Program-made: the position numbers and the translations under genes
Shown here: positions 9,483-40,039 of the stretch, in pieces
How the letters are laid out: every line of letters begins with the position of its first letter
How positions within the stretch are numbered: the stretch's first letter is position 1
Source of the DNA: a virus
Virus record (IMG/VR): IMGVR_UViG_3300032084_001307
Coordinates: 1-45,811 of that record
Strand: one strand, 5' to 3'
DNA: 45,811 bases
Notes under the pieces: model-generated
Seen by the model: only the letters and a program-made list of their open reading frames with translations
Told to the model about the DNA's origin: nothing
Databases searched by the model: none

Positions 9483-10237
9483 ACAAAGACAAAATCATAA
9501 TCGCAGACCCTCAAATCCATAAGGGCTCATCCATAGAGCATTTGGAAGCAGTAGGTAAATACATTTGGCGACACAAGCCAGAAGAGATCGTCCATATTGG
9601 AGATCACTGGGACTTCCCGTCCCTGAGTTCCTACGCATCGCCCTTGGAGCGTGAAGGTAAACGCCTGAAAGAAGACCTTAATGCGGGCATCAAAGCGCTC
9701 AAGGCCATTACAAAGCCTGTAGTGTCTCGCCAAAAGCGCGGCACCACTGAGTACGACCCTGAGTGGCACTTTATTACAGGTAACCATGAAGATCGCTTGA
9801 CACGATTTATCAGTCAGAATCCGGCACTAGCAGGGTTCATCGACTTGGAACACATCATCGAGTCACTAGGCTGGATATACCACCCGTTCAAGATGCCTTA
9901 TTTCTCAGACGACATCGCGTTTGTCCACTATATGACTAACCCGCAATCGGGTAAGCCAGTGGGCGGTTCAATCGAGAACAAGTTGAATAAGTTCCCACAC
10001 AGCTTTGTACACGGTCACCAGCAACAGTACCAATATGGTCGCCGGCAGAACCTGCAAGGTAAACCACACTTTGGTGTATGTGCAGGTAGTTTCTACATTG
10101 AAGACGAAGGCTACCGTGGCGCGGATAATACAGAGATCCGTGGGTTTGTTCACTTACACGCATTCACTAACCGTTACGGGTTCCAAGATTACGACGTAGA
10201 GTTTGTGTCGCTAGAACGCTTATTAGCGGAGTACTAA
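9479..10237 (+). CDS. Calcineurin-like metallophosphoesterase
   Basis: 252 residues. The dimetal phosphoesterase motifs are in order: ADPQIHKG (D-x-H), HIGDHWD (GD), TGNHEDR (GNHE), an HY segment near residue 144 and FVHGHQQQ (GHxH-like). Substrate unknown; relatives in T7- and phiKMV-like phages sit in the same place, after endonuclease VII and before RNA polymerase. The ATG overlaps the preceding stop (ATGA), and its own stop overlaps the RNA polymerase start (TAATG). Confidence 0.88.
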   Translation: MNKDKIIIADPQIHKGSSIEHLEAVGKYIWRHKPEEIVHIGDHWDFPSLSSYASPLEREGKRLKEDLNAGIKALKAITKPVVSRQKRGTTEYDPEWHFITGNHEDRLTRFISQNPALAGFIDLEHIIESLGWIYHPFKMPYFSDDIAFVHYMTNPQSGKPVGGSIENKLNKFPHSFVHGHQQQYQYGRRQNLQGKPHFGVCAGSFYIEDEGYRGADNTEIRGFVHLHAFTNRYGFQDYDVEFVSLERLLAEY

Positions 10238-12651
10238 TGAATTTAGCTCGACAGATCGAGTGGGAACGCGAGTGTGCAGAACGAGGCTCAGCCAAGTACT
10301 ACGCACAGCAAGACCGCTTACGGGAGAAAGGTAGAGGTGACATGACTGAAGTGTCATCCTACCTTATCAAAGATAGACTTAGAGAAGCATCGGAACTACT
10401 CGAAGAGTACGTTACCGTACGTGTAGGAGGTAAATCAGCTAACTACAACAAGATAATCCGGTCAGTGGCCGGCGATGAGGGTGACTATACAAAGATTGCT
10501 TACATCGGCTTGAAGGCTATCTTACGAGAGCTCCAAGTGTCGAGTATGAAATCTAAGCGACCACCTTTAGTAACACAAGTGGCGTCGCAAATAGCCAAGC
10601 GCGTAGAGGCTGAGCTGAAGTGTCGTATGTTCGAGGCGTCCAACCCTGAATACTACGACGCTGTACGCAAGTCTATGTCACAGCAGAACGTGACTGATTT
10701 CGTCCACCAGCATAAAACCCTGATGAAGAAATTCAATGAGTTTGGCATTGAGTGGAACGATTGGAACACCGTTACGAAGATCCAGGTCGGCACCCGGGTA
10801 CTCCGGGCCCTACTAGACACCTTCGGAGACATCCTGTTCATAGACAAGCGATACGAGAAGGGTAAAACTCCATTAATCTTGAATACCACTGTGGAATTCG
10901 ACGAGTGGGCAGGTGAGTTCGAACGAGAGCGAGGTCTATTAACACCAGACTTTCTCCCATTGAAGATTCCACCTCGACCATGGACTTCCCTAACTGACGG
11001 TGGTTACCACACGCCGGCACTACGCCTCGACTTCATTAAGACAGTCGGGAAAGGTGCCAAGTCATTTGTGAGCAAGTACCTACCGCAAGCGCATCTACGA
11101 GCTGTGAACAAGATGCAGCGCACCGCGTGGAAGATCAATGACCGCGTACTCAGCGTACAGGAGGAGGTCTACCGCCTTGGCCTTGGCATTGGTGTACCGA
11201 ACAGTGAGAAGATCGAGCCGCCACCATTCCCTGAACACCTGAAAGACATCGACAAAGAGGATCTAACAGAGGATCAGCAAGCCGAAGTCACAGCGTGGAA
11301 GGTTATGGCTAAGGAGTGCTACTGGAAAGAGACTAAGCGTAAGGGTCAAGTACTGGGCTTTATGCAAGCTCATCGGCTAGCTAAAGAGCTCCGACAGTGG
11401 GAAAAGATGTACTTTGCCTACAATTGTGACTTCAGAGGTCGTATTTACTGCGCTACAGCCGGTTTATCACCTCAAGGGTCTGATGGTGCCAAGGGACTTT
11501 TACAGTTCTCTAAAGGCGTTAAGTTAGGCCGTAAAGGCGTTCACTGGTTGGCAGTCCATGGTGCGAACACCTTCGGAGAGGATAAACTCTCATACGAGGG
11601 TCGTGTAAAATGGATACAAAATCAGGAGCAGTTCATACGACAGGTCGTCGAAGATCCAATTAGTCACCGTGACTTCTGGGGTTCAGCCGACAAACCATAC
11701 CAGTTCCTAGCGTTTTGTTATGAGTGGGCTGACTGCGATTACGGACGTAACCCTAACGTAGAATCACACATACCAGTTGGACTAGACGGTAGTTGTAACG
11801 GGCTACAACACTTCTCAGCTATGCTCCGGGACTACACCGGCGCAAAGGCAACAAACCTAACAGCATTAGACTACGTACAGGACATTTATCAGGAAGTGGC
11901 CGATGTAACTACAGCTAAGCTCAAAGAGATGGACGATCCAAGGGCCAGTAAGTGGCTCCAGGTCGGTGTAGACCGGAAGTGTGCAAAAAGACCAGTAATG
12001 ACTCTACCGTATGGTGCGACCCAACAGTCGGCCAGAGAGTACATTTATGGGTACGTTGTGGACAATTGGGCTAAGTTTGGTCTCGAAACGAGTATGCAGT
12101 GGGAGTTCTCAAAGTTCCTAACGCCGGTACTCTGGTCGGCTATCAGCGAAGTAGTAGTGGCAGCGCGTGAAGGCATGGACTGGTTACAGAAGAATGTAGG
12201 CAAGGACTACGCCCACTGGATTACTCCAATCGGGTTCCCTGTATATCAGTACTACAAAGATGTCAAGTATACCGAGGTACGTACTCAACTTGAGGGTTCT
12301 GTACGGTTGATCGTGCATGATCTGGACAAAGATGGCGCTCCTAAGAGATCGGCACAGAGGAATGGTGTAGCACCAAACTTCGTGCATAGCTTGGATAGTA
12401 CTCACATGGTAATGACCATAAACGTAGTAGACGTAGATGATCTAGCCATGATCCACGATGACTTTGGTACTCATGCGGGTAACACCGAGCACTTGTTCAA
12501 ACGGATACGAGACACGTTTAAGACACTGTACAGTAATCACAAACCACTACATGAGTGGGCAGAACAGCGTGGTATAGACACGGATACCATACCCGCAGGC
12601 GGTACGTACAACATTGAAGAGATTACTAATGCAGCATACTTCTTCGGGTAG
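10237..12651 (+). CDS. Single-subunit RNA polymerase 1 (T7/phiKMV family)
   Basis: 804 residues, a complete T7-type enzyme. Motif A is GLDGSCNGLQHFSAM with D517. Motif B has the exact R-x3-K-x7-Y spacing (R580, K584, Y592, then G). Motif C is MIHDDFGTH with D741. These match T7 D537, K631, Y639 and D812. DFRGRIYC and APNFVHSLDSTHM are also family hallmarks, and the chain ends AAYFFG, an aromatic C-terminal foot as in T7. It lies after the metallophosphoesterase and before the virion genes, the phiKMV arrangement. A second polymerase is encoded at 37817-40039; the region corresponding to the T7 specificity loop differs between them, so different promoters are likely. Confidence 0.96.
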   Translation: MNLARQIEWERECAERGSAKYYAQQDRLREKGRGDMTEVSSYLIKDRLREASELLEEYVTVRVGGKSANYNKIIRSVAGDEGDYTKIAYIGLKAILRELQVSSMKSKRPPLVTQVASQIAKRVEAELKCRMFEASNPEYYDAVRKSMSQQNVTDFVHQHKTLMKKFNEFGIEWNDWNTVTKIQVGTRVLRALLDTFGDILFIDKRYEKGKTPLILNTTVEFDEWAGEFERERGLLTPDFLPLKIPPRPWTSLTDGGYHTPALRLDFIKTVGKGAKSFVSKYLPQAHLRAVNKMQRTAWKINDRVLSVQEEVYRLGLGIGVPNSEKIEPPPFPEHLKDIDKEDLTEDQQAEVTAWKVMAKECYWKETKRKGQVLGFMQAHRLAKELRQWEKMYFAYNCDFRGRIYCATAGLSPQGSDGAKGLLQFSKGVKLGRKGVHWLAVHGANTFGEDKLSYEGRVKWIQNQEQFIRQVVEDPISHRDFWGSADKPYQFLAFCYEWADCDYGRNPNVESHIPVGLDGSCNGLQHFSAMLRDYTGAKATNLTALDYVQDIYQEVADVTTAKLKEMDDPRASKWLQVGVDRKCAKRPVMTLPYGATQQSAREYIYGYVVDNWAKFGLETSMQWEFSKFLTPVLWSAISEVVVAAREGMDWLQKNVGKDYAHWITPIGFPVYQYYKDVKYTEVRTQLEGSVRLIVHDLDKDGAPKRSAQRNGVAPNFVHSLDSTHMVMTINVVDVDDLAMIHDDFGTHAGNTEHLFKRIRDTFKTLYSNHKPLHEWAEQRGIDTDTIPAGGTYNIEEITNAAYFFG

Positions 12652-12671
12652 GCCAGCTACTAGGAATGAAA

Positions 12672-13109: not shown

Positions 13110-13339
13110 TGTACATCGCAGCAGCCGTGGCAGTAGCCACAGCCCTGTACGCAAATAACAGACAAAAAGCAGCTCAGCGTAAAGCCAGAAAAGAACAGAA
13201 AGAAGACCAAGCCCAGGCTCGAAAAGCGGAAGTATTCGCAGAGACAGAAGGGTCAGGTCTCGGCCAGTTCGGTGAAATTAGCCTAGATGTAGAGCGCGAA
13301 GTGGATGACGATGAGTTAGAATCCAACGTGCGCATTTAG
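13109..13339 (+). CDS. Small putative virion protein with hydrophobic N-terminus
   Basis: 76 residues. A short hydrophobic segment (YIAAAVAVATALYA) is followed by a highly charged helix (RQKAAQRKARKEQKEDQ) and an acidic tail with GLGQFGEISLDVEREV. This three-part layout is seen in small proteins just upstream of the portal gene in several T7-type phages, in the position of T7 genes 6.7 to 7.3, which encode small virion proteins. Assignment rests on layout and position. Confidence 0.6.
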   Translation: MYIAAAVAVATALYANNRQKAAQRKARKEQKEDQAQARKAEVFAETEGSGLGQFGEISLDVEREVDDDELESNVRI

Positions 13340-13347
13340 GAGTAATT

Positions 13348-14889
13348 ATGGACTTACGCGAAGCACAAACCAAATACCTGACAGGTGAGTACAAGCTAAA
13401 GGGTGAGTTCGCAGGCAGCGACTATAGCCGAGAAGAGACTCTTACCCGAGCTGAACGCTATGCAGGCTGGACATTACCGTCGATATTCCCAGACGAGCCG
13501 TTGATGGAATACGACGAGATGCAGAACGACTTCCAGTCAGTGGGAGCCGCTGCTACGACCAACCTAGCAAACAAAATGATGATGGCTCTGTTCCAGCCAG
13601 CTAAACCCTTCTTCCGAATGGACTTAACTCAAGAACAAAGACTTGAGTTAGAGGGAGACGCGGGTCTCACAAAAGCAGAGATTGACGCGGCTCTAGCCCA
13701 GGCTGAGCGTGAGGCAATGAAAGAGCTGAATAAGATTCATGCTCGAGTAGTCCTAAATGACGCAATGCTACACCTGATCATCACAGGTAACGTACTGCTA
13801 GAGATGCCGACTAAAGGTAACATGCAGCTATTCTCACTAAGAGACTACTGCGTGAAGCGCGATCTACATGGTAACGTGACTAAAATCATCATGCGTTCGA
13901 CTAAGGCAGTATCAGCACTATCGAACGAACTAGCGTCGTTAGCATACGCAGCAGGATACGCGGAGAATGACGAAGCATCTCTGTATACCGGTGTATGTCG
14001 AGTAGCTGAAGACCGATTTATGGTCTGGCAAGAAATGGAAGACCTCTGTTACTGCCACAAACGTGTGGGTTACTACACGTCGGACACCTTACCGTGGATT
14101 CCATTGACGTGGAAACTATGCCGAGGTAAGGACTACGGGACGGGTCTAGTAGAGGACTACAGTGGAGACTTCCACACGCTGTCAACTACAGCAGAGGCTA
14201 TGCTGGACTACACCACTGTCGCCACAGATGTCAAAAACCTGGTTAACCCAACCGGTATGACAGACGTTCGGGAACTCACAGAGGCAGCATCCGGTGCATA
14301 TGTCCACGGTAGAGAAGAAGACCTCTTCCCATACACGGCAGCGAACCAACTCGGACACTCAGTGCAGTTCTTACAAGAGCGATCAGATAAGATTGAACGT
14401 CGTATCGGCGCAGCCTTCTTGCTGAATACCTCAGTAACTCGGGACGCAGAGCGCGTAACGGCAGAAGAGATCAGAATGCAGGCCCACGAACTAGAGAGCT
14501 CATTAGGCGGCATTTACTCTCGACTGGCAGTAGAACTACAGCTACCAATTGCGAAAAGACTTTTACGCAAGCTTGTACCAGTATTCCAAGAAGTAGAGCC
14601 AATTATTGTGGCCGGCTTCGAGTCACTATCACGGAACAGTGAGTTAGACAACTTACGAGCTTTCTTCCGCGACCTTGCTGGAATTGCTGAACTACCTGAC
14701 CAAGTAACAGCTCGACTAAAGATCGGGGATGTAATCGCGCTTCTAGGTGCAGGTCATGGCGTTGAGTACTCTAAATTCTTGAAAGATGAAGATCAGGTGA
14801 AACAAGAACAGTCGCAGGCTATTCAGACTAACGCACAGATGGCGGGAGCTGAAGCAGCAGCGATTAATCAAGCTCAAGGATCAACTTAA
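13348..14889 (+). CDS. Portal protein (head-tail connector, T7 gp8-like)
   Basis: 513 residues, close to T7 gp8 (536). Forms the dodecameric DNA entry and exit ring at one capsid vertex. Recognisable features include the N-terminal TLPSIFPDEPL and NDFQSVGAAATTNLANKMMMALFQPAKPFFRMD region, the LHLIITGNVLLEMP stretch and the long C-terminal helical part with NTSVTRDAERVTAEEIRM. The C-terminus is Gln/Ala-rich. A strong AGGAGTAA precedes the ATG. It is followed directly by scaffold and capsid genes. Confidence 0.95.
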   Translation: MDLREAQTKYLTGEYKLKGEFAGSDYSREETLTRAERYAGWTLPSIFPDEPLMEYDEMQNDFQSVGAAATTNLANKMMMALFQPAKPFFRMDLTQEQRLELEGDAGLTKAEIDAALAQAEREAMKELNKIHARVVLNDAMLHLIITGNVLLEMPTKGNMQLFSLRDYCVKRDLHGNVTKIIMRSTKAVSALSNELASLAYAAGYAENDEASLYTGVCRVAEDRFMVWQEMEDLCYCHKRVGYYTSDTLPWIPLTWKLCRGKDYGTGLVEDYSGDFHTLSTTAEAMLDYTTVATDVKNLVNPTGMTDVRELTEAASGAYVHGREEDLFPYTAANQLGHSVQFLQERSDKIERRIGAAFLLNTSVTRDAERVTAEEIRMQAHELESSLGGIYSRLAVELQLPIAKRLLRKLVPVFQEVEPIIVAGFESLSRNSELDNLRAFFRDLAGIAELPDQVTARLKIGDVIALLGAGHGVEYSKFLKDEDQVKQEQSQAIQTNAQMAGAEAAAINQAQGST

Positions 14890-15803
14890 TGTTGTTTTAC
14901 TCAAATGAAATTTTACAGAGCCCCGAAAGTGGTGGCGAAACTCCAGCGGGTGGTGCACAAGCTCCTGCCAGTAACACTGACAACAGTACTCCTACTGGGA
15001 ATGCTGACCCTAGCAAACCGCATGACTGGTCAAACGACCCACGAGTCGACGAAAATGGTAATCCAGTTGAGCAATCACCTGAAGGCCAAGAGCCCGAAGT
15101 AAAGCCCGACGAAAACCCGACCCAGGATCAACAACAAGAAGGTGAAGACTCCAGTAACGAGGAGGAGCAGCCTAACTACGTCCCAATGACGGAAGACGTA
15201 GGTAAACAGGTTACTAAGCTTATCGAAGAAGCCGGCCTAAACGCCCAAGACGTGGCAGCGGCTATCTACAACAACGGTAAGAAAGTTACACCTGAGATCA
15301 TGAAAGCCTTAGCTGAGAAGCATGGGGACGCGGTAGCAACAGTCCTCGCGGGTAATCTTGAGTCACTGTCACGGCAGGGTGCCCAGAAAGCTAAAGCGAA
15401 TGATCAGGCCGTGTATGACACAGTGGCCAAAGCATTCGAGGGAGTTACCGATCAATCTGGTAAAGAGTCTTGGAATGAGCTTAAACAGTGGGCCGGTGAT
15501 AACATCCCTAAAGCAGAGCGTGAAGAGATTAACGCCTTATTAAAGCAGGGCGGTATGGCACAGAAGATGGCGATTAATGAATTGATCGACCGCTTCAAGT
15601 CGTCGGACTCATTCAATCAAGAAGTCGTACTAGAGCAGGGCAGTCGTGTGTCAGGCCAAGGCGCAGACGGAGCACCCATCTCACGCACGGAGTACCAACG
15701 AATGCTCCGCGAGTTAGAATCCAAAGGTCATGTGTATGGCCAATCAACCGAAATTGCCAAACTCGACCGTCGTCGTGAAGCAGGCATAAAACGTGGCATC
15801 TAG
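14889..15803 (+). CDS. Capsid assembly scaffolding protein (T7 gp9-like)
   Basis: 304 residues, very acidic. Residues 10-100 are a low-complexity Pro/Glu/Asn/Asp region, followed by charged helices and a basic C-terminus (KLDRRREAGIKRG), the part of scaffolds that docks onto the coat protein. T7 gp9 is 307 residues. It is placed between portal and capsid genes as usual. The start overlaps the portal stop (TAATG). Confidence 0.9.
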   Translation: MLFYSNEILQSPESGGETPAGGAQAPASNTDNSTPTGNADPSKPHDWSNDPRVDENGNPVEQSPEGQEPEVKPDENPTQDQQQEGEDSSNEEEQPNYVPMTEDVGKQVTKLIEEAGLNAQDVAAAIYNNGKKVTPEIMKALAEKHGDAVATVLAGNLESLSRQGAQKAKANDQAVYDTVAKAFEGVTDQSGKESWNELKQWAGDNIPKAEREEINALLKQGGMAQKMAINELIDRFKSSDSFNQEVVLEQGSRVSGQGADGAPISRTEYQRMLRELESKGHVYGQSTEIAKLDRRREAGIKRGI

Positions 15804-15832
15804 CCATAGACATTTACAAAGGAGACTAATGA

Positions 15833-16933: not shown

Positions 16934-16959
16934 AGCCCATTCGCGAGAGTGGGCTTTTT
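16934..16959 (+). terminator. Intrinsic terminator after the capsid gene
   Basis: A nine-base-pair stem (AGCCCATTC with GAGTGGGCT, one G-U pair) closes a GCGA tetraloop and is followed directly by Ts. Stem, stable tetraloop and U-tract are all present. T7 has its major terminator (T-phi) at this same place, after the capsid gene, where it lowers transcription of tail genes relative to capsid. Confidence 0.9.
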
Positions 16960-17601: not shown

Positions 17602-20130
17602 ATGCGAATAGAGCAATCTTATGACACACCGATACAAGGTGTAAGTACACTAGCCCCGCGTAATCGGGTAGATGGTCAAGCGACAACACAGCTAAACTTC
17701 AGATCCGATCCGGTGAATAAACTCACTAGGAGGCCACCCTTAAAGTGGCTAGGGTCACTGTTAGATGTAACCTCGGGGACGGACATACTAAACCACTCGT
17801 ATACCCGTGGTGACACTACCTACCGATACCTGCTCAATAAGGATACCGGTGACGTACATTGCTACATCAACGATACCCTACATATGTCACTAACAGTACC
17901 AGCATATGGTACAGGCCAGAACATAGTAGTACAGACGATTAATGATGAAACGTTCTTCGTAAATACTGACATAGTAGTACAGATGTTGCCAGATACAGAC
18001 GACGCAACCATCCAGAAAGTGTCCCATATCAACGTGACGGAAGCTTTGAACTATAGTGAAACAGTTCAGGTAAACATAACGAAAAGTAACGGTGACCGTG
18101 CGTCAGTATCATACAAAGTCCCCAGCTTAGGAACGTCAAATCCAAACTATGACGCAGCAGATAGAGCTCGAGCGACTACACGAGTAGCCCAAGAATTAGC
18201 TGCGCGTATAAACGCAGGTGGTACTATTCAAACTGGTAGGATACCAAACTACGACTATCCGTTAGACAACTACAACGATGCAGACTGGATGATGTACTGC
18301 GATCCTAACAGCGGTAATTTTGATTCGAGTATGAGCGTGTGTAAACCATACTTAGATGACTTCCCAGGCATTTCTGGAGTAACCGCAGTAGCACTAGGAT
18401 CCACAGTAGCCGTATGGGAGGATTCTGGTGAGTGGTTGAACGTAGAAATTGAGTCTGGTCAAGGTGATCGTACTACAGTAGCGTTTAACCAAGTCACAGA
18501 GAAAGTAGAAGGGTTACCGCTGTATGCTAAAGTGGGAACCCGGATAACAGTGCGTCCAGACCCAACATCTGAAAAGGGCACTTACTACCTGGAGGCTACA
18601 CGGATAGCGGACGACCCATCAGGTGAAGAACTCGAAGAAGTAGTATGGGTAGAATCGCGCAACCCACATGAACCATACGCGTTAGACTCCTCAACCCTCC
18701 CATTCAGCATTACGTTCAATAACGAATTGTACATATTTGAGGTCAATGACCTAGTGTTCCGCGACAGGAAGAATGGTGACAACGACTCGGTAGAGCAGCC
18801 AGAGTTTGTAGGAAAGACCATCAGAAATATAAGCTACTTTCAGAAGCGCTTAGTATTCCTATCAGACGATAGCGTGGTTATGTCAGAGACAGATGACCTG
18901 TTAAACTTCTGGAAACAGTCTGCTGTTCAATTACTGGTGACAGACCCCGTGACCATCGCGTCGTCTGCTGTCGAAGTAGATAAGCTGGCTCATGCGATCC
19001 CGCACAACCGTGACCTACTGGTTACAGCGGCGAATGGTCAATTTAAGATTAGTGGCTCATCCGCGGTAACACCACAAACAGTCTCAATGGCACTAACTAC
19101 TAAGAATGAATGCCAGACAGAAGTTGAACCCGTAGCCATGGGTAACTCCGTGTTTTTCCCGATTGATTACGGAGACTCTACGGGTATCCAAGAGTACACA
19201 GGTGAACGTGATACAAACCAAGACCATGCGAGATCTATCACTGAACATGTGATTGGCCTAATGCCGGGCACCATCAAGTTCTTGAAGGCGAGCCCTAACT
19301 TAGAAATGCTGGTAGTACAGACTCAAGGTGATCCAGACACGCTGTTTGTGTATGAGCAGTTCACCTTGGCAGACGGTAATAAGAGCCAGCGAGCTTGGAG
19401 TACTTGGAAGTTTAGCCAAGACGGCACAATCATTGACATCGAGTTCAAAAATGATCGGATGACTTTGATAGTGGACGAGGACGACAAGATACTTAAGAAA
19501 GAGTTAGACATGTACGCTAGGGTAGCAACAGGCGCGCATGAAGTATTTCTTGATGACTTATACTTAGACGAGTTCACTGGTGGGGAAAGCGTAAGATTGC
19601 GCTACCCGTACGCCGACGACATAGTACTAGTAAATCACGAAGATAATGAGCTAGCTCTGCTACCAATCGCATACACTCGGCTAAGTGAGAACTCTAATAC
19701 ACTAGTGTTCAACTCCCCGTTAGAACCGGAAGCTAAAGTCTACGTAGGGCGAAAGTACAGATCCGCATACCGACCGACCAGACCATTTCGCAGAACTGAA
19801 GACGGGCTAGCGATCACCACGGATCGCGTAAGGGTGGGTAAGTGGATTGTGGCTGTAGTCGATACAAACGAAATCAGCATGACAATCGACTCACCGTACG
19901 TGACAGAGGATTTGTATTGGAATCAGGATCAAACCTTTAATGGTCGATACCTAGCTTCGATTAACAACATCCTCGGAGAAGTGACCTTTACCACAGATGA
20001 TGTTAAGTTCTCATTCAACCAAGACGCCAAACTTGCAGAGGCGGAATTCTACACCGATAATCACTTAGGTTGCACAATTGCTGGCCTAAGCTGGGAAGGT
20101 CAATACTTCGCATCTAAAGGGAGGATGTAA
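17602..20130 (+). CDS. Tail tubular protein B (T7 gp12-like nozzle)
   Basis: 842 residues (T7 gp12 is 794). It forms the tail nozzle. Starts with the family's QSYDTPIQGVSTLAPRNR and GQATTQLNFRSDPVNKLTRRPPL segments and is beta-rich throughout; the ISYFQKRLVFLSDDSVVMSE and SDPVTIASSAVEVDKL-like central blade region, here VTDPVTIASSAVEV, and NLEMLVVQTQGDPDTLFVYE are also typical. The stop overlaps the next start (TAATG). Confidence 0.93.
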   Translation: MRIEQSYDTPIQGVSTLAPRNRVDGQATTQLNFRSDPVNKLTRRPPLKWLGSLLDVTSGTDILNHSYTRGDTTYRYLLNKDTGDVHCYINDTLHMSLTVPAYGTGQNIVVQTINDETFFVNTDIVVQMLPDTDDATIQKVSHINVTEALNYSETVQVNITKSNGDRASVSYKVPSLGTSNPNYDAADRARATTRVAQELAARINAGGTIQTGRIPNYDYPLDNYNDADWMMYCDPNSGNFDSSMSVCKPYLDDFPGISGVTAVALGSTVAVWEDSGEWLNVEIESGQGDRTTVAFNQVTEKVEGLPLYAKVGTRITVRPDPTSEKGTYYLEATRIADDPSGEELEEVVWVESRNPHEPYALDSSTLPFSITFNNELYIFEVNDLVFRDRKNGDNDSVEQPEFVGKTIRNISYFQKRLVFLSDDSVVMSETDDLLNFWKQSAVQLLVTDPVTIASSAVEVDKLAHAIPHNRDLLVTAANGQFKISGSSAVTPQTVSMALTTKNECQTEVEPVAMGNSVFFPIDYGDSTGIQEYTGERDTNQDHARSITEHVIGLMPGTIKFLKASPNLEMLVVQTQGDPDTLFVYEQFTLADGNKSQRAWSTWKFSQDGTIIDIEFKNDRMTLIVDEDDKILKKELDMYARVATGAHEVFLDDLYLDEFTGGESVRLRYPYADDIVLVNHEDNELALLPIAYTRLSENSNTLVFNSPLEPEAKVYVGRKYRSAYRPTRPFRRTEDGLAITTDRVRVGKWIVAVVDTNEISMTIDSPYVTEDLYWNQDQTFNGRYLASINNILGEVTFTTDDVKFSFNQDAKLAEAEFYTDNHLGCTIAGLSWEGQYFASKGRM

Positions 20131-20663
20131 TGGCACAATACGCCGACGCAGTACAAGCCGGCTCGAGTGCTCTTGCATACATGCTAACGGGCTCTAATGC
20201 AGAGTCCCGTGCAGCATACAACGCAGAGTATCAACGACTAGCACATCGTGCTAACGTACTCGAAGCACGTCAGGTAGCACAGTCTAATCTGGCAGCAATC
20301 GAACAAGACAAGATTCTATCCAATACACAGATCCGCATAAACCAGTCACACGCTGAGGCGCAGGCCCTAGTAAGTGCAGCGGCAGCGGGTGTAGATGGTG
20401 GGTCTGTCGATGACGTAATATACGACACAGAACGTAACGCAGCATTCGCACTAAGCAGAAACAACGCAAAGGCCGAGCAAGAGAAGGAGTATCAGGTAGC
20501 CGCAATCGGTAGCCAAAGCTCTGAGCTACTTGCTATCCCAGACCGAGCAGAATACAGTTCAGCCGGTGCGATATTAGAAGCCTTTAGCTCACTCGAGCAA
20601 AGTGACTTAGATATTATGGAATCAGGCGCAGTAAAGGGCCTGAGTAAACTTTGGAGCAAATAA
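20130..20663 (+). CDS. Internal virion protein (T7 gp14-like)
   Basis: 177 residues, Ala-rich and largely helical, close to T7 gp14 (196). The pattern of an Ala-rich N-terminus, EYQRLAHRANVLEARQVAQSN, INQSHAEAQALVSAAAAGVDGGS then VDDVIYDTERNAA is characteristic of gp14 homologues. In T7 this protein is ejected first and forms a channel in the outer membrane for DNA entry. Followed by two further ejection proteins. Confidence 0.88.
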   Translation: MAQYADAVQAGSSALAYMLTGSNAESRAAYNAEYQRLAHRANVLEARQVAQSNLAAIEQDKILSNTQIRINQSHAEAQALVSAAAAGVDGGSVDDVIYDTERNAAFALSRNNAKAEQEKEYQVAAIGSQSSELLAIPDRAEYSSAGAILEAFSSLEQSDLDIMESGAVKGLSKLWSK

Positions 20664-20664
20664 C

Positions 20665-23499
20665 ATGACCGAATTCGGGCAACCACGACGTTCAGCTACA
20701 CAGGACGCAAACGCCGGTGTGATCAATCCACCAGCTCAGAGAGTGGCCGCTCGGACGGTCGCTACTCCAGCTAAGAAAGAACAACCAACACAGTTAGGTA
20801 CAGCTATCGAGTCAACTGGCGCTAAGCTAGGGGCCGCGTTACAGTCCTACCTGACTGAAGAAACGACTAACATTAACGAACGGAAAGCAACGGCAGCAGC
20901 CATCCGACAGGGGCAGGCTACATCTATCAACAGTGTAGATGCTACTAAGGAACGCACAGGCTGGACACGGGCTATATTCGGCCAGGACGTAGAATACCGT
21001 GAGGCACAGCAACGTGCTGCCACTAATTCCGTACAACAGCTATACATTGAGCAAGCCGCTAAGGTAGGCGAATTCAAAGGTGAAACGCCGGCTGAATACG
21101 AACAGCGCTTAATAGCAGGCCTAGACACAGTGCTTGAGCCATATCAGGATGATCAGGAAACAAAGAGTATGATTACCCTGAAGTTCATGGAAGCAAGCGC
21201 TAAATTAGCCAACAAGCACTACGCAGAGCACTACGCTTATAATCAGCAGCAGCAGCGTGAGACCTACGAGAAAGAGGTTCAACAGACCTTTGATACTTGG
21301 ACAGTAGACCAAACTCAGCTAAAGGATGTCACAGAAGCAGAAGCCCAGTTAGATCGAGTTTACAGCTTCTTCAACGGGCACTCTAAACCTGCGGGTATGT
21401 CCCCAGAGGCCTGGCGTGGATCCGTAAACAACCAACTAGATGTAGCGCTACGGAACGGTAACATCGGTGCCTACAAGATGGCACAGCTATCTGGCTGGAC
21501 AGATAAGCTGCTCCCAGCAGAGCGGCTAAAGCTAGACAAAGCCATTTCAGTGTACGACACACAGTTCTTCCAGAAGGTTAATCGCCAGTACGAGCAAGCG
21601 GAGTTAGCAGCACTAGACGCAGCAAATGCGGATGAGGCAGCAGCAATTTATGCCGAGTTTCGGTCGTCCTTAGGTATTGATTACCAGAAGGCATCAGGCT
21701 CAGCACGTAGCATGTCAGCTCTGGCTCGGTCAGACTTTAATGACGTGATTGGTCAGCGCGAGTCTAATGGTAATTATCAAGCAGAGAATCAGCTTGGCTA
21801 CATCGGTAAGTACCAATTTGGCGGCATGGCCTTGGAATCCACTGGCTATAAGAAAGACGGTAAGTGGACAGGCAAAGATGGCGTTAACTCAGCAGACGAC
21901 TGGAAGAACAACCCGGATGCACAAGAGAGCGCGATGGCCACACTAACAGGTCAGAATCGTCGGCATCTAACTAGCCGTGGTGTTATGGACAAAGTAGGCG
22001 AAACCTTCAACGGTGTACGAGTGACTGAGCAGGGCTTACTAGCCGCTAGCCACTTAGTCGGTGCAGAGGCAGTAGCCCGTATGCTTGAATCTGGTACTGT
22101 CCCTGCGGATGCTAACGGCACAACTGCACTGTCTTACATGAGTATGTTCCAGAACCCCACAACTGATGTGAATCAGGAAGTAGCCAACGAGCTAACGGAA
22201 GACATGTACGCTAGTGGCTCCGAGCGTGGGGCACAAGTACTAGCGCAGCATGCAAGTCGGGCTGAGAAGGCCGCACAGGCGCTCCAGAAGACTACTAGGA
22301 CACTGGGCGAGAAAGCGATCAAAGCAGCCTTAAAGAAAGAGGCCGAACTCAAGCGACTTAACGCTCTAAAAGATGCTCACCGAGACCCGGACGCAGTGTC
22401 CAGGGGATCTAAGTTGTCAGGTCTTAATCCAACCAAAGCAGAAGCTGAGGAAACACTAGACATGGTACTAGTCGATGAGATTAGTACACAACTCGGGTTA
22501 GAGAAGCCGCTGACTATGACAGAAGCCGCACAGGTTATGATGACCGATGTGTCCATAGCTAACCGAATAGCGAACATCGTGAAGGACAAGCAAACGGACT
22601 CACCAATGGTGGATCGGATGATTGAAACCTTCATCGGAGGCTTCGGTACGCACATCGACGAGAACAATCAGTTAACTGAAAGTGGTAAGACGGCCCTTGC
22701 AGCCATCGCACAGTTCGAAAAGAATGAAGCATGGTTTAAAGGTATGATCGGGAGTAAGTACGATCACCTTGAGATAATCAAGCGGGGTGTGTACATGCAA
22801 CACACCGCAGATATGATCCAGAAAGACATTGACCTATTCGAAAAGAACAAGGGCAACAAGGAACAGTACGGCATCAATTGGGAACTAGGTGAAAACGAGT
22901 CCAAGAGAGATCGAATCCAGGGCCTAGTAAATAGGTTTGGTGGTGGTACTCCTTATGGGAGCTCACTAGCCCACTACATGGAAGAGTTCGATCGGGGGTT
23001 AATCTTATACCAAGGGGATCGTAAACGCGCTGAGACATACCTGCGTAAGTCAGTAATGAACTCAGGGTTATCGTATCGTGGTAAAGCCATCATAGGTGGA
23101 CGCAAACTAAACGAGGTGACTAAGTATCCATTCGAACAGTTGCTAGACTCAGCACAAGAGTCAGTAGGGAATGGTGCCAGCATGCTAACGCCTAAGTTAG
23201 CCTCTATGGGAGTAGCACTAGAGGGTGAAGACGGTAAGATACTGACAAGTATTGAACAGGTTGAGGATCTCGAATTCTATACAGTAGATGGCGTAGATGG
23301 GTTTTACATGACCTCACCATGGACTCAAGCAGACGCATTTGTAAGTCATAGCGATATGGCGCACTGGGCGAAACAAATCCAACAGAGAGACAACTTCAGT
23401 CGGATGAAGCAAGAAGCTGGAGACAAGGTAGTAGACCAGTGGATGAAAGAACAAGAAACGCTACAAAAGTATGCACCAATCGGTGCTGGATTCTTCTAA
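20665..23499 (+). CDS. Internal virion protein with lytic transglycosylase domain (gp15/phiKMV gp36-like)
   Basis: 944 residues. Residues 1-340 are helical and Ala/Gln-rich. Around residues 360-475 lies a peptidoglycan hydrolase of the lytic transglycosylase type: IGQRESNGNY, with the likely catalytic Glu near 366, then LGYIGKYQFGGMALESTGY and AASHLVGAEAVARML. The rest is helical. T7 carries its transglycosylase at the N-terminus of gp16, whereas phiKMV carries a muralytic domain in gp36; here it is in the middle of the equivalent of gp15/gp36. It would open the cell wall during DNA ejection and is probably part of the virion core. Confidence 0.87.
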   Translation: MTEFGQPRRSATQDANAGVINPPAQRVAARTVATPAKKEQPTQLGTAIESTGAKLGAALQSYLTEETTNINERKATAAAIRQGQATSINSVDATKERTGWTRAIFGQDVEYREAQQRAATNSVQQLYIEQAAKVGEFKGETPAEYEQRLIAGLDTVLEPYQDDQETKSMITLKFMEASAKLANKHYAEHYAYNQQQQRETYEKEVQQTFDTWTVDQTQLKDVTEAEAQLDRVYSFFNGHSKPAGMSPEAWRGSVNNQLDVALRNGNIGAYKMAQLSGWTDKLLPAERLKLDKAISVYDTQFFQKVNRQYEQAELAALDAANADEAAAIYAEFRSSLGIDYQKASGSARSMSALARSDFNDVIGQRESNGNYQAENQLGYIGKYQFGGMALESTGYKKDGKWTGKDGVNSADDWKNNPDAQESAMATLTGQNRRHLTSRGVMDKVGETFNGVRVTEQGLLAASHLVGAEAVARMLESGTVPADANGTTALSYMSMFQNPTTDVNQEVANELTEDMYASGSERGAQVLAQHASRAEKAAQALQKTTRTLGEKAIKAALKKEAELKRLNALKDAHRDPDAVSRGSKLSGLNPTKAEAEETLDMVLVDEISTQLGLEKPLTMTEAAQVMMTDVSIANRIANIVKDKQTDSPMVDRMIETFIGGFGTHIDENNQLTESGKTALAAIAQFEKNEAWFKGMIGSKYDHLEIIKRGVYMQHTADMIQKDIDLFEKNKGNKEQYGINWELGENESKRDRIQGLVNRFGGGTPYGSSLAHYMEEFDRGLILYQGDRKRAETYLRKSVMNSGLSYRGKAIIGGRKLNEVTKYPFEQLLDSAQESVGNGASMLTPKLASMGVALEGEDGKILTSIEQVEDLEFYTVDGVDGFYMTSPWTQADAFVSHSDMAHWAKQIQQRDNFSRMKQEAGDKVVDQWMKEQETLQKYAPIGAGFF

Positions 23500-33361: not shown

Positions 33362-33364
33362 CCT

Positions 33365-35353
33365 ATGAGTGAGCTAACTCCAGAAGAATTAGCCGCGCAA
33401 ATGCGTGAGCAGGACGACAACAACTACGATGACTACTCCGACGCGGAATGGTCAGAGATATTGGAAAGTCGACCGGAAGTCCGTGAACAGGGAGAGTTCA
33501 CGGCAATGGCTAATGACCCTGAGTTAATGGCCACTTTATCCGAAACAGAACTCGAGTGTGTGCAGCGGTGGTCTGAGATTGAGGCCCTACGTGAGCATTA
33601 CGCCTTGTTCGAGGACTTCCTGTATGACTGTATGACGGAGCTTATGGGCTTCCAGTGTACAGAGCTGCAAATCGACATAGGTAGGTTCCTACAATCTGAC
33701 ATCCGTTACGGTATGATTCAGGCACAGCGATCACAGGCTAAGTCAACAATCGTGGCAATGTTCGCGGTGTGGCAGCTTATACACGACTGTAAACACCGCA
33801 TCCTCATTATCTCAGCAGGTAGTGAGGTTGCAGCCGAGATTGCTAACTGGGTGATCCAGATCATTATGAACTGGGACATCCTGGAGTGCATGCGGCCTGA
33901 TCGACAGCATGGTGATCGAGCGAGCTCTAAAGCGTTCGACATCCACTGGCAGTTGAAAGGTGCCGAGAAGTCACCAAGTATCGCCTGTATCGGCATCACT
34001 GCAAACATGCAGGGTCGTCGAGCAGACTTACTCATCCCAGATGATATCGAGTCGTCAAAGAACGGTACTACCGAAGTCCAACGACAAGCACTTGAACACC
34101 TGTCAAAAGACTTCACCTCGATCTGTCAGTCAGGTCGGATCATGTACCTCGGGACACCGCAGACTGTAGACTCCATCTACAACAACCTCCCCGCTAGGGG
34201 TTACATTATCCGTGTTTGGACAGGCCGTGTGCCTACAAATGAGGAAGCCAAACACTACGGTAATACGCTGGCTCCCTACATCGCTAAGATGATGGACGAT
34301 CCAAGCAATCAGATTGGAGGTGGCGTCGACGGAACCCGAGGCAAACCGACTGACCCGATACTATTAGGTGAAGAAGCTCTGACAATGAAGGAGCTTGACC
34401 AAGGTGCTGCGTACTTCAACCTGCAGCATATGCTGAATACTGAGTTATCAGACGATTTACGACACCCGCTTAAGACTAAAGACCTAATTGTCATGCCATT
34501 TGGTATAGACAAGGCACCGGGTGAGATTACTTGGATGCCCAGTCCTCAGAACTTGATACCGGCAGATGGTAAATTCACCTCAAAACCGACATTCTACCGC
34601 CCGTTCACCGTTTCGACCGAGATTTACGAGTTCGAGGGTAAGCACATGTACGTGGATACCTCAGGTGGTGGTAAGAATGGCGACGAAACGGTCGCAGCAG
34701 TGACCTATTTCCTCCATGGTTACGTATTCCTGGCCGAGCTACTGAAGCTACCAGGCGGATACACCCCAGAAGGCTATAAGAAGCTCTCTGAGCTCGCTCT
34801 AAAGCACGGGGTAAACTCTATTGATGTAGAGAAAAACTTCGGCTTTGGTGCCTTTGCGGCGGGCTGGCGGCCTATCTTGGCCAAGACCTATAAGGAAGCA
34901 GGTAAAACCTTCGCCCCTCCTATCGAGGACGTATGGGAAACCGGCCAAAAGGAACTAAGGATCATCGATACGCTGGAGCCACTAATGGCACGTCACCGTA
35001 TCATCATCCACGAGGACATAATCGACTATGACGTCGAGAGTGTATCGCGTTACCCAATTGACCAACGTGAAAGCTACAAGTTCTTTCATCAAATGGCCAA
35101 GATCTCACGCGAGAAGGGTGCCTTAGTACACGAAGATGCAATGGACGCATTCGCTGGATCAGTCCGTGTATGGGTAGACAGAGTAGCAGTCGATGAAAAG
35201 ATCCGAATGGAGCAGAAAGAAACCGATGAAAATGTAGAGTTCTTTGCCCAATGGGGCGGTGACATCGGCCAGTACGGTAAGACCCTGGGTCTATCCTCTG
35301 ACCGGTTCAAACGAAAAACAACAACTAGATACCAGAAAGGTAAAAGACGATGA
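33365..35353 (+). CDS. Terminase large subunit (T7 gp19-like packaging ATPase/nuclease)
   Basis: 662 residues (T7 gp19 is 586). Pumps DNA into the capsid and cuts concatemers. ATPase: QRSQAKST near residues 120-127 is the Walker A-like loop, and DLLIPDDIES near 222-231 is Walker B with the catalytic acidic pair. Nuclease, RNase H fold: MYVDTSGGGKNGDET with the first Asp, SIDVEKNFGFGAF and HEDAMDAFAGSV with later acidic positions. The extra N-terminal 60 residues are acidic. The ATGA overlap at the end couples it to the next gene. Confidence 0.95.
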   Translation: MSELTPEELAAQMREQDDNNYDDYSDAEWSEILESRPEVREQGEFTAMANDPELMATLSETELECVQRWSEIEALREHYALFEDFLYDCMTELMGFQCTELQIDIGRFLQSDIRYGMIQAQRSQAKSTIVAMFAVWQLIHDCKHRILIISAGSEVAAEIANWVIQIIMNWDILECMRPDRQHGDRASSKAFDIHWQLKGAEKSPSIACIGITANMQGRRADLLIPDDIESSKNGTTEVQRQALEHLSKDFTSICQSGRIMYLGTPQTVDSIYNNLPARGYIIRVWTGRVPTNEEAKHYGNTLAPYIAKMMDDPSNQIGGGVDGTRGKPTDPILLGEEALTMKELDQGAAYFNLQHMLNTELSDDLRHPLKTKDLIVMPFGIDKAPGEITWMPSPQNLIPADGKFTSKPTFYRPFTVSTEIYEFEGKHMYVDTSGGGKNGDETVAAVTYFLHGYVFLAELLKLPGGYTPEGYKKLSELALKHGVNSIDVEKNFGFGAFAAGWRPILAKTYKEAGKTFAPPIEDVWETGQKELRIIDTLEPLMARHRIIIHEDIIDYDVESVSRYPIDQRESYKFFHQMAKISREKGALVHEDAMDAFAGSVRVWVDRVAVDEKIRMEQKETDENVEFFAQWGGDIGQYGKTLGLSSDRFKRKTTTRYQKGKRR

Positions 35354-35832: not shown

Positions 35833-35860
35833 TCCAAACAAACATAAGGAATAACACAAC

Positions 35861-36255: not shown

Positions 36256-36774
36256 TTGACTAAAATATAGCCAAAATCCCTTAACCTCGATTTCTCCTTA
36301 TAAATCAGTAACTTAGAGAACATTGAGTTTAGGGTCACATATATAAAGGGAGTCCTCATGACGAGCTTTACAAGCATCGCAATTCGATACTCTATCGACT
36401 TCGTATAGTTATACAGTCGCTATTACAGTGTACCTACAGTGTTATCACACAGTCTCCCACAGTGTTACTCCTATGTAATACCAAATATTAAAAACGGGTA
36501 CCAAATGTGAGGGCATACTCCCTCCGGTCGTAAACACTTGATTCCCCCATAGGCACCTTTGTTACACCAGTAGACACAGTGTTACCAAAGCCCTAACTCA
36601 TGAGTGATACATGGTTACTTGCAGGGACTGGTGGGCTTGCGCCCAGATATGTCTCTTTTGTGATGTATGGATTAACTACAGATTACACACTCTATACACA
36701 CTAACTACACACTGTAACCTTAGTAACACAGTGTACACACAGTATTAACACAGTAACTACACAGGTATAACACT
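36212..36774. other. Gene-free region: hairpins, promoter repeat and short-repeat array; likely genome-end region
   Basis: The longest stretch without a gene (563 bases). In order it holds hairpin TAGAGGG/CCCTCTA (36234-36255), a promoter-containing repeat (36281-36350), a left cluster of ACACAGTGTTAC-like repeats (36413-36468), two TACCAAAT copies (36479, 36499), hairpin GAGGG/CCCTC (36509-36524), one full repeat (36574), hairpin TGGGC-TTGC-GCCCA (36632-36645), and a right repeat cluster from 36711 into the next gene. The region lies after the terminase genes and before the early genes, exactly where T7 has its terminal repeat flanked by short-repeat arrays. Confidence 0.75.
36281..36350 (+). 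promoter_or_regulatory. Candidate phage RNA polymerase promoter, copy A
   Basis: About 70 bases that recur at 43481-43548 with near identity. The last 26 bases (36324-36349) are identical in both copies and centre on TTTAGGGTCACATATATAA. The shape recalls SP6 and T7 promoters (TTTAGG, then CAC, then TATA, then purines), and upstream conserved blocks TTATAAATCA and AACTTA are shared too. A transcript would start near the AAAGGGAG. It points toward the early genes and lies at the end of the late genes, like T7 phi-OR. Confidence 0.7.
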
Positions 36775-36826: not shown

Positions 36827-36975
36827 CAAAGCATTACACTGAGCTACACATTACACGGGAGACTACTCAAGGTGAACTACTTGAATACCTTGGTTCACAC
36901 TCTCTTACTCGTGATGTACTCACTCGCGCTGCTAAGGTGCTACGTACTGAACCACTCTTTGTAGTAATCATCTAG
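36775..36975 (+). CDS. Small early protein
   Basis: 66 residues; first gene of the early module. The N-terminal third is Asn/Gln/His-rich and its DNA still carries the short repeats of the region upstream; the C-terminal two thirds look like a compact helical domain (TQGELLEYLGSHSLTRDVLTRAAKVLRTEP). No family known. The ribosome site is weak (AGG ten bases upstream), and no other ATG is in frame, so the start is uncertain. Confidence 0.55.
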   Translation: MLNHNNVRQQHSNTQYVPKHYTELHITRETTQGELLEYLGSHSLTRDVLTRAAKVLRTEPLFVVII

Positions 36976-36984
36976 GAGATAACC

Positions 36985-37464: not shown

Positions 37465-37466
37465 CC

Positions 37467-37658
37467 ATGCCATTCGAACTGCCAACATTGATCCTACTAA
37501 TCACTGCTAACATCGAGCTTGTACTTGGTGCAGTCTGGATACTAAACCACATAGTCGAGGTACACGACGAAATACTAGAGACTGAGGGCTCTATCGACCA
37601 AACAGCCTTGGAGAGCACCAGATTGCTTGCTGAGCTGACTTCTATGGAGAACCTGTAG
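37467..37658 (+). CDS. Small early membrane protein
   Basis: 63 residues. One membrane segment at about residues 6-29 (PTLILLITANIELVLGAVWILNHI) and an acidic C-terminal tail (VEVHDEILETEG) probably on the other side. GAGGAGAATAACC precedes the ATG, two bases after the previous stop. Early membrane proteins of T7-like phages often act in superinfection exclusion or host membrane changes; that is inference. Confidence 0.68.
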   Translation: MPFELPTLILLITANIELVLGAVWILNHIVEVHDEILETEGSIDQTALESTRLLAELTSMENL

Positions 37659-37816
37659 GATATATCTATTTTCGTTTATCGCGCTCACAGAGGCTTACAG
37701 AGCATCCTAGGGCGCCTATCGGCACCAGCAGCATAGCTGCAATATGAATTAATGGCTCGTAAGGGCCTCCGCTTTCTGTGCGTGAGCACGTAGCAATTAA
37801 CTAAGAGAATACAATC
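37659..37816 (+). promoter_or_regulatory. Structured leader upstream of RNA polymerase 2
   Basis: 158 bases without a gene in an otherwise tightly packed module. Distant segments can pair: CACAG (37686-37690) with CTGTG (37776-37780), AGGC (37691-37694) with GCCT (37765-37768), and GCTCAC (37683-37688) with GTGAGC (37782-37787) as an alternative outer stem. Inside is a clean GCAGC-ATA-GCTGC hairpin (37728-37740) and a TAGG-GC-GCCTA palindrome. It could control translation or processing of the RNA polymerase message, or be a small RNA. No tRNA features. Confidence 0.45.
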
Positions 37817-40039
37817 ATGTTGAACATCGCAAAACTAGCTGAAATCGCAAACACTCAAGAACGTATCATCTCTGGTGTGGTACACGTACCTGCCGGCTGT
37901 AACGCTGACGAGGAGACTCGTAACCTTGTGGGCTTCACTCGTGACAAGATCATGTCTGGAACGCGTGCTGCATTCACTGAGTGGCTTAACGCTAACTTGA
38001 CTGACATGGATACTTTCGGTGACGAGACTATCATCCTGATCAAGTACCGGACTGAGCGTGGTGACATTGAGCAGAAAGCTCAGTACTTGGCTCACACACT
38101 GTGGTCTGTATGTTTGACTGCCCTGGCTACTGACCGAGACAACTGGCTCTCGACTAACATTGTAGAACGTTCTATCAAGAACTGGCTTGAGACTGATAAG
38201 CCTCGCCTTTACATGGAGAAAGCTGGCTTCAGCATGACTGACGATGAGATCAAGACCACTGCAATGAGAATGGTACGATCTCTACAAGACAAGGGTGTAC
38301 TATGCACCAAGATCGCTAAGCGTAATGAGTTAGTGATCGACTCTGACGGAAATACTGTGATGGAGAACGGTAAGCCTAAATTCTTCACAGCACGCTTCTA
38401 CCCTTTGACCAGTGAGTTCCAACTACTCATCGACAACATCACCGAAGAGCTTTGTGTAGAAGCTTCTATGACATGTCGTCCGATGACTAACAAACCAAAT
38501 GACTGGACTAGTCCGAAAGATGGTATCGGCAAGCATGCTCGTATCCGCTTGATCAAGGCTAAGTTCCAACCGCGCTCAGTATCACGTCCAGTACTTGATG
38601 CTGTGAATAAGCTGCAGTCTGTGCAGTTCATGGTATCACCGGTGATTGTACGTGCTGCCAAGGAGATGAAGCGCTGTAACAATGCTCTGACCAAAGAGCT
38701 TAGTGGTTACTTCTCTGACAAAGAGCTTGTGAACGAGGCGTTTGATGCCTACGCAATGCTTGGAGAGTTAGCTGGTGGTAAATTCTACTTCCCAGTGACT
38801 ATGGATAGCCGTGGGCGTATGTACTACCGTGGTGGTCTACTGACTCCACAAGGTACTGACTTCTGCAAAGCTGCGTTCCAATTCGCTGAGGGTAAGCCTC
38901 TGGGTGATCGTGGACTGCAAGCGATCTACGTACACACTGCTGGTGTGTTCGGTATGGACAAGGTATCTATCAAAGATCGTATCGAGTGGGTTACTAAGAA
39001 CCTACACCATATCGTACGCTGTGAATCTCACTGGAACGTACGTAAGAACTTCAAGGGCGCTGATGTGTTTCAAGCGCTTGTAGCGGCTGCTGAGCTACGT
39101 TCTATTGAGGAATGGAAAGCTGCGGGTAAGCCTGTTAAAGACTTCGTAAGCCACCTTGTGTGCCATCAGGACGGTACATGTAATGGCTTACAACATTCGG
39201 CAGCTATCACGGGTGATCGTGCTACTGCTGAAGCTGTAAACTGTGTTGCCTCAACTGCGAGTGACGTACCTGCGGACGTATACGACCTTGTGGCCAAGCA
39301 AGCTGAAATGGACTCTGACGGTGACGTCGCTTCCTTAATTGCTAAGTACGGTCGTGGTATGGCTAAAAACCCTGTGATGATTACATCGTACGGTGCTGGC
39401 GAGGAGACCATTATCCGTAACACTGGTGCCTACCTATCAAAAGCAAAAAATGAAGGGGCTGACCATCTGGGTGAGGAAGTTGGTAAAGCATACTGTGAAG
39501 CTATCGGCAAGGTAGCGGGCGGTGTGACTGCATTGACTGAAGAGATCAAGATGGCGGTTAAAGAAACTATCAAGCAACGTCTAGTTGAGGTTGATGGTGA
39601 CCATAATAAGGTTAACCCGAGTATCAAGTGGAAAACTGCGGATGGATTCATTGCATCGACTGAATATCGTCAGGAAGAGCTATTCCGAGTACGTCAAGGT
39701 GCTCACGCGATCCGAGTACGCGGTCGTGGTAAAGCTCCTATTGATACAGTTAAGACTGAGTGTGCGATGTCACCGAACCTGATCCACAGCATTGATGCTG
39801 CCCACTTACGTATGATCGTGAATGGTTGTGATCATGACCTAGTGACTGTGCATGATTCAATCGGTTCTCATGCTGCTGACTTCTACGATACAGCTCGTGT
39901 TATTCGTGAGCAGTTCGTAGCAGTTCACGCGTATGACGCATTGGCTAACCTGTGTGATAACCTCGGTCAGCCTACACCAGAATTCGACGGGGACTACCGC
40001 GCGACCGAAGCCCTACAATCTACTTACATCTTCAGCTAG
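37817..40039 (+). CDS. Single-subunit RNA polymerase 2, early gene position
   Basis: 740 residues, second complete phage-type RNA polymerase. Motif A is CHQDGTCNGLQHSAAI with D452. Motif B keeps R-x3-K-x7-Y exactly (R513, K517, Y525, then G). Motif C is TVHDSIGSHA with D680. DSRGRMYYRGGLLTPQGTDF and MSPNLIHSIDAAHLRM are further family blocks, and the chain ends STYIFS. It is 64 residues shorter than RNAP1 and 143 shorter than T7 RNAP, mainly in the N-terminal half. The segment matching the T7 specificity loop (FRVRQGAHAIRVRGRGKAP) is basic and unlike RNAP1. It holds the T7 gene 1 position, and codon use (more ACT, GCT, CTG, CTT) differs from RNAP1. Confidence 0.95.
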   Translation: MLNIAKLAEIANTQERIISGVVHVPAGCNADEETRNLVGFTRDKIMSGTRAAFTEWLNANLTDMDTFGDETIILIKYRTERGDIEQKAQYLAHTLWSVCLTALATDRDNWLSTNIVERSIKNWLETDKPRLYMEKAGFSMTDDEIKTTAMRMVRSLQDKGVLCTKIAKRNELVIDSDGNTVMENGKPKFFTARFYPLTSEFQLLIDNITEELCVEASMTCRPMTNKPNDWTSPKDGIGKHARIRLIKAKFQPRSVSRPVLDAVNKLQSVQFMVSPVIVRAAKEMKRCNNALTKELSGYFSDKELVNEAFDAYAMLGELAGGKFYFPVTMDSRGRMYYRGGLLTPQGTDFCKAAFQFAEGKPLGDRGLQAIYVHTAGVFGMDKVSIKDRIEWVTKNLHHIVRCESHWNVRKNFKGADVFQALVAAAELRSIEEWKAAGKPVKDFVSHLVCHQDGTCNGLQHSAAITGDRATAEAVNCVASTASDVPADVYDLVAKQAEMDSDGDVASLIAKYGRGMAKNPVMITSYGAGEETIIRNTGAYLSKAKNEGADHLGEEVGKAYCEAIGKVAGGVTALTEEIKMAVKETIKQRLVEVDGDHNKVNPSIKWKTADGFIASTEYRQEELFRVRQGAHAIRVRGRGKAPIDTVKTECAMSPNLIHSIDAAHLRMIVNGCDHDLVTVHDSIGSHAADFYDTARVIREQFVAVHAYDALANLCDNLGQPTPEFDGDYRATEALQSTYIFS

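Follow-up and report, generated by a model that had tools for sequence, protein, structure and literature searches.

T7 is the textbook case of a phage in which one phage polymerase carries out all phage transcription. More than one phage-encoded single-subunit RNA polymerase (RNAP), used in succession, is known from N4 (Schitoviridae; PMC4496689), which has a giant virion-packaged vRNAP and a two-chain RNAPII with cofactors, and returns its late genes to the host RNAP. Two T7-type polymerases in one T7-like genome have been mentioned for Alteromonas phage H4/4, which Kallies 2017 (PMC5658483) lists with 'two DNA-dependent RNA polymerases' and no comment. Our literature search found no other paper naming two polymerases and no functional or evolutionary study of the arrangement; 'RNA polymerase' and 'RNAP' are absent from the text of the paper on the related phage R8W, and the cultured isolates are annotated without remark on the pair. 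The arrangement is thus known already, from annotations and one genome announcement. It is real, well conserved and apparently unstudied. The analysis below describes no new kind of system; its value is that it points to the lineage and offers a testable model.

Genome closure and gene order

The stretch of DNA analysed (the window) is a complete IMG/VR virus record of 45,811 bp. Its ends are identical over 91 bp (1-91 = 45721-45811), and therefore the contig closes on itself; the overlap reflects assembly closure and is placed within the primase-helicase region. The window represents the whole genome of a marine podovirus of the T7 supergroup. Every assigned gene lies on the plus strand, and the genome encodes its own RNAP. 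PHROG matches revealed genes of the T7 supergroup for portal, scaffold, capsid, tail tube, internal virion proteins and terminase. Judged by this gene content (own RNAP, T7-supergroup virion genes, one coding strand), the virus would belong to the Autographivirales (formerly Autographiviridae). The genes that set the frame are the following:

334..1584, plus strand: DnaB-type helicase
3183..5570, plus strand: family A DNA polymerase
10237..12651, plus strand: RNAP1 (804 aa), a T7-type single-subunit RNA polymerase; final gene ahead of the virion block, at the phiKMV position
13348..14889, plus strand: portal / head-tail connector; opens the virion gene block after RNAP1
16935..16959, plus strand: hairpin with T-run, intrinsic-terminator-like as read from the sequence; 3' of the major capsid gene
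33365..35353, plus strand: large terminase, close to the end of the late block
37817..40039, plus strand: RNAP2 (740 aa), a T7-type single-subunit RNA polymerase belonging to a deep clade of its own; first of the large genes in the early region
43879..44679, plus strand: DNA primase (phrog_47, 4.2e-39; Toprim_2); first annotated replication gene 3' of copy 2 of the promoter-like repeat described below

Homology with the annotated ends of H4/4 (terminal repeat 1-217) would place the physical left end close to 36523. Read from there, the order would begin with the early genes, among which RNAP2, about 1.3 kb in, is the first of large size; these would be followed by small unknown genes, primase and helicase, then by DNA polymerase, exonuclease, ligase, endonuclease VII, phosphoesterase and RNAP1, and finally by portal, scaffold, capsid, tail, internal virion proteins, fibre, terminase and the end. 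The sequence-only reading had put RNAP1 at the phiKMV place and RNAP2 where T7 has gene 1; RNAP1 is indeed at the phiKMV place, and RNAP2 is in the early region. In phiKMV/KP34-type phages the RNAP gene also stands just before the virion genes and the blocks follow each other as around RNAP1, but there is one polymerase only and no early RNAP2.

Hairpins are likewise found in relatives in the gap after the major capsid gene. A terminator scan gave no excess over shuffled sequences, and an Rfam search gave no match. The endonuclease VII-like frame at 9069-9482 (CAICGKPFTKTDPPVLDHDHETGYIRAALHRSCNGA) is without an ATG, GTG or TTG start yielding at least 60 aa; an in-frame ATT lies shortly 3' of AGGAG, and translation might start at a rare codon or be coupled to that of the ligase. 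An endolysin-type gene (phrog_7, 2554-2970) lies among the replication genes of the window; the endolysin of H4/4 is in the virion block, joined to an internal virion protein through a -1 frameshift.

Two intact and diverged T7-type polymerases

The central claim of the sequence-only reading, that this podovirus genome carries two complete, different T7-type RNAPs, stands: both are intact, diverged from each other (26% identity over ~580 alignment columns), and keep all catalytic residues. Their coordinates were given correctly, and both frames run uninterrupted from ATG to stop. The Pfam RNA_pol domain PF00940 matches RNAP1 at 1.7e-91 (307.7 bits) and RNAP2 at 7.7e-62 (210 bits; curated cut-off 22). 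A six-frame scan of the whole record detected PF00940 in exactly two genes, in ORFs of ~740-826 aa with internal stops absent, and no third T7-type RNAP gene. The residues named earlier are correct. D517, R580-x3-K584-x7-Y592 and H740-D741 in RNAP1 and D452, R513-x3-K517-x7-Y525 and H679-D680 in RNAP2 are invariant across the respective orthologue alignments; they align to T7 D537, R627, K631, Y639, H811 and D812.

An AlphaFold model of RNAP1 (pLDDT 80.7) has T7 RNAP as its top PDB match over the full length (Foldseek E=1.2e-44). The RNAP2 model, which is only fair in quality (pLDDT 71.8), also matches T7 RNAP full-length (TMq 0.68, Foldseek E=6.7e-22), and its closest viral fold is RNAP2 of phiV141 (E=4e-35). 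The Pfam domain RPOL_N is matched by RNAP1 only, and the RNAP2 counterparts of the T7 N-terminal promoter elements fail to align. Because of the absent RPOL_N match, these unaligned elements and the only fair model, RNAP2 may depend on a partner protein. The specificity loops had been described as different, and alignment with T7 bears this out: the RNAP1 loop has the T7 length, while that of RNAP2 is ~5 residues shorter. Such unlike loops suggest different promoter specificity.

Occurrence of the pair in related phages

The arrangement is not peculiar to the window genome, since cultured isolates share its layout. RNAP1 and RNAP2 occur at the same two loci in Alteromonas phages H4/4 and R8W (Foturvirus) Vibrio phages JSF7 and phiV141 (Tawavirus), and the Vibrio K385 group; the pair is also present in PhPV1.2. 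Four near-complete IMG/VR metagenomic records (G002, G009, G010, G029) have both genes at the same loci; they were found by alignment-based scans, single-protein scans of IMG/VR having given nothing usable. Eight records of 42-47 kb with a sister-group polymerase (G032-G034, G036-G040) hold one RNAP gene only. A scan of bacterial genomes found no relatives of RNAP2. By orthologues at both fixed loci, clades supported at 100/100 and synteny, the window is a member of this two-RNAP lineage, formed by Foturvirus, Tawavirus and relatives.

The closest comparison is with Foturvirus H4/4 (MF278336) and R8W (MW043865). Both carry the two RNAPs in the same places, RNAP1 being 62-63% and RNAP2 44% identical to the window, and share the window's order of replication, head, tail and terminase genes; they also have the ATATGTCTCTTTTG signal and the CTTATAAATCA block, at the end where the window has them. 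They differ in the promoter core (CTATTACTATAATAAGGG), which occurs once, and in possessing genes for ribonucleotide reductase and thymidylate synthase, which were not seen at that place in the window. Megablast of window positions 1-25000 against a phage collection including H4/4 and R8W returned no match. On these comparisons the window is a sister lineage of Foturvirus, with DNA similarity below genus level. A large non-coding stretch with tRNA-like and hairpin-like parts is conserved upstream of the Foturvirus DNA polymerase gene (R8W 14450-14953, H4/4 13283-13553); the window is without it as such.

The Tawavirus phages JSF7 and phiV141, as well as the K385 group and PhPV1.2, show the window's two-RNAP layout at lower identity (RNAP1 44-47%, RNAP2 30-33%); the deposited PhPV1.2 record is rearranged, and its annotation splits RNAP2 into pieces. 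The CTTATAAATCA block and ATATGTCTCTTTTG signal were searched for in Tawavirus, the K385 group and PhPV1.2 and not found.

That T7-like phages normally carry one such gene was borne out by 2594 phage records with an RNAP1 homologue, in which there are 41 extra RNAP places in all, most of them explained by ~27 records of the two-polymerase lineage. Two polymerases are therefore an exception among T7-like phages and a marker of the Foturvirus/Tawavirus lineage.

Phylogeny, selection and origin of RNAP2

In a tree with T7, SP6, phiKMV, KP34, Syn5, Ponderosa, RHEph27 and yeast Rpo41 as reference set, RNAP1 and RNAP2 form two separate clades (support 100/100 each). RNAP1 clusters with the single polymerases of Rhizobium-type phages plus T7 and SP6, and RNAP2 lies outside. 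RNAP1 is the resident phiKMV-position enzyme.

RNAP2 might be a fast-evolving duplicate of RNAP1 rather than an acquired polymerase, an origin that would be compatible with the transcription cascade considered below. The two enzymes occur in one phage and have one fold, and the RNAP2 stem is long (2.4 changes per column), such that long-branch attraction could have displaced RNAP2 in the tree. Yet a constraint joining RNAP1 and RNAP2 cost 26 log units (p-AU 0.04), by which their monophyly appears to be rejected, though only narrowly, and the RNAP2 profile scores equally against phiKMV and RNAP1 (222 bits each). RNAP2 is thus probably not a recent copy of RNAP1, and we regard a duplicate origin as unlikely, though it deserves to be kept in mind.

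Pairwise distances of RNAP1 and RNAP2 are correlated over 11 genomes (r=0.96; pairs not independent), and therefore the two genes appear to have been inherited together. Between R8W and H4/4, dN/dS is 0.13 for RNAP2 and 0.04 for RNAP1, compared to 0.19 for primase, 0.12 for ligase and 0.10 for capsid; as estimated from this pair, both RNAP genes are under purifying selection, within the range of other genes. Since the two genes travel together and stay intact over the divergence of the lineage, both are probably needed. A marine lineage that keeps, under purifying selection, two RNAPs from two deep branches raises the question why one is insufficient.

A far more divergent RNAP2, ~30% identical to that of the window, was seen in G029 (IMG/VR record of L056) at 19814-20794. 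This genome is otherwise close; its RNAP2 is the most basal found and is useful for dating the acquisition.

A repeated promoter-like element

When the end overlap is set aside, no exact repeat in the window is longer than one of 26 bp (40 shuffles gave at most 17 bp). This repeat holds 24-mers at 36326 and 43525 and is part of a 59-bp block, 86% identical between two copies:

36291..36349, plus strand: repeat copy 1, inferred promoter, 59 bp, consisting of the CTTATAAATCANNNACTT block and the core TTTAGGGTCACATATATAAAGG (36328-36349); right end, phiOR-like place
43490..43548, plus strand: repeat copy 2, inferred phage promoter, core 43527-43548; upstream of primase and replication genes

The core resembles T7-group promoters; the SP6 promoter is ATTTAGGTGACACTATAGAAG. 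Copy 1 is at a right-end place comparable to that of phiOR in T7 (39229). Two promoter classes had been inferred, and the sites at 36324 and 43523 proposed for testing; these two sites share an identical 26-bp core and are one class. No second class was revealed by repeats, by core scans allowing mismatches, by reading of intergenic sequences or by long identical runs between relatives, and there is little intergenic space for late promoters of RNAP1's own. A search for a sigma-70 early promoter gave no convincing candidate, scan hits being equal to those in shuffles.

The CTTATAAATCANNNACTT block upstream of the core is present at the corresponding end in four relatives, G002, R8W, H4/4 and G009; it was observed at 15/15, with a chance expectation of 0.11 hits per genome at 13/15. 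G002 also has the core (21/22), while in R8W, H4/4 and G009 the core itself is changed although the block is retained. CTTATAAATCANNNACTT (36291-36316, 43490-43515) is better kept among relatives than the adjoining promoter core. Its opposite strand resembles a second T7-type core (AAGTCATTGATTTATAAGG), and the block may hold two elements.

Covariation with specificity-loop residues did not decide which enzyme uses the promoter. A GGGTCAC core is common to the window and G002, but at T7 positions 746/748/756/758 RNAP1 has E/R/R/I in the window and R/V/E/W in G002, a difference at all four; their RNAP2 enzymes both keep R at T7 position 748. Since the core is shared while the RNAP1 specificity residues differ, the comparison hints weakly that RNAP2 is the enzyme reading the repeated core.

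Predicted left end and junction-like signal

Two features mark the predicted left end:

36523..36646, plus strand: predicted terminal repeat of packaged DNA, approximate, from homology with H4/4 ends only; left end ~36523
36647..36660, plus strand: ATATGTCTCTTTTG, candidate concatemer-junction pause/termination signal

The ATATGTCTCTTTTG motif is at 31 and 55 in R8W and at 218, 239 and 258 in H4/4, with variants in G009, G010 and G029. In Alteromonas-type genomes, 1-3 motifs of this type lie a short way inside the left end, all of them on the gene strand; no others were found elsewhere in R8W, H4/4 or the window. The first copy in H4/4 starts directly 3' of the annotated terminal repeat (1-217), just as ATCTGTT of T7, at 161, lies directly 3' of the 160-bp repeat. 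The ATCTGTT signal is a class II terminator, of the kind described at the concatemer junction (PMC11617373). Given its position and T-rich likeness to the T7 signal, ATATGTCTCTTTTG may be the same kind of pause signal, for the late polymerase of the lineage. A cluster of ACACAGTGTACACACAGTATTAACACA-like repeats is found at the left end (36415-36772), before and around the first early gene.

Proposed model of transcription

We consider it fairly probable that the lineage stably keeps two functional RNAPs and that a cascade from host polymerase to RNAP2 to RNAP1 is the best explanation for them. The early region at the left end would be transcribed by the host polymerase, allowing RNAP2 to be made; RNAP2 would then start at a phage promoter, probably that at 43527, and transcribe the replication block through to RNAP1, which would drive late and virion transcription. 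The right-end promoter copy, together with the terminal repeat and ATATGTCTCTTTTG, might serve late replication or packaging in the way that phiOR and the concatemer junction do in T7. We infer the order of the steps, the catalytic activity of the enzymes, the enzyme that uses the element and the phiOR- and junction-like roles. This model is preferred on grounds of conservation and of gene position, RNAP2 being the foremost large gene of the early region and RNAP1 standing directly ahead of the virion block. Moreover, RNAP1 acting at 43527 would need another enzyme for its first supply, as its gene lies ~12.5 kb downstream. Against the cascade, only one promoter-like class was found in the DNA, and different promoters for RNAP1 and RNAP2 are not indicated. 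The lack of a convincing sigma-70 candidate, the scarce intergenic room for late promoters of RNAP1 and the possible need of RNAP2 for a partner protein also count against it. The sequence-only reading had proposed a cascade with two promoter classes; the cascade remains the most reasonable inference, while the second class was not found. With culturable relatives at hand, R8W above all, the model is directly testable.

More tentatively, and with nearly balanced expectations that tip slightly to the negative, we propose a relay of three polymerases, from host RNAP to an early RNAP2 of a deep lineage to a classical RNAP1, with promoter specificities kept apart throughout the history of the marine lineage. 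The lineage could also supply two polymerase-promoter pairs of natural origin that work independently of each other.

A single detectable promoter-like class with two identical cores (36328, 43527), and late genes with almost no intergenic room for other promoters, would also be expected if both RNAPs used one class, RNAP2 providing early dosage and RNAP1 acting later with no promoter switch. The difference between the specificity-loop regions in both length and sequence speaks against such sharing. The enzyme of KP34 can use two unrelated promoters (PMC6834552), which makes the promoter count a poor guide either way. We regard shared specificity as improbable.

A slightly smaller chance is given to RNAP2 being a middle polymerase similar to N4 RNAPII, which would not initiate on duplex DNA alone and would require an early-encoded accessory protein, as N4 RNAPII requires gp1 and gp2 (PMC4496689). 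RNAP2 is indeed short (740 aa; ~675-710 aa in relatives), with a divergent N-terminal part and shortened specificity loop, and its gene is surrounded by small unknown early genes. However, it is one chain and not two, its model can be aligned with T7 RNAP from end to end, and its profile scores 61 bits against N4 RNAPII versus 176-222 bits against Autographiviridae enzymes. With this score and two PF00940 ORFs only, the window does not have an N4-like transcription system, and N4, whose different layout had been noted, is not the closest parallel.

It is very unlikely that RNAP2 serves mainly in DNA entry by transcription, origin priming or late packaging instead of middle expression. T7 RNAP has extra roles in DNA entry, origin priming or packaging, and a promoter-like element is located at the concatemer end beside the junction-like signal; but RNAP2 is an early gene and packaging is late, and the second copy of the element is in front of replication genes.

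Finally, misassembly or contamination, by which one RNAP gene would come from another phage, is practically ruled out by the closed ends and by the same genes at the same syntenic loci in isolates and independent metagenomic contigs.
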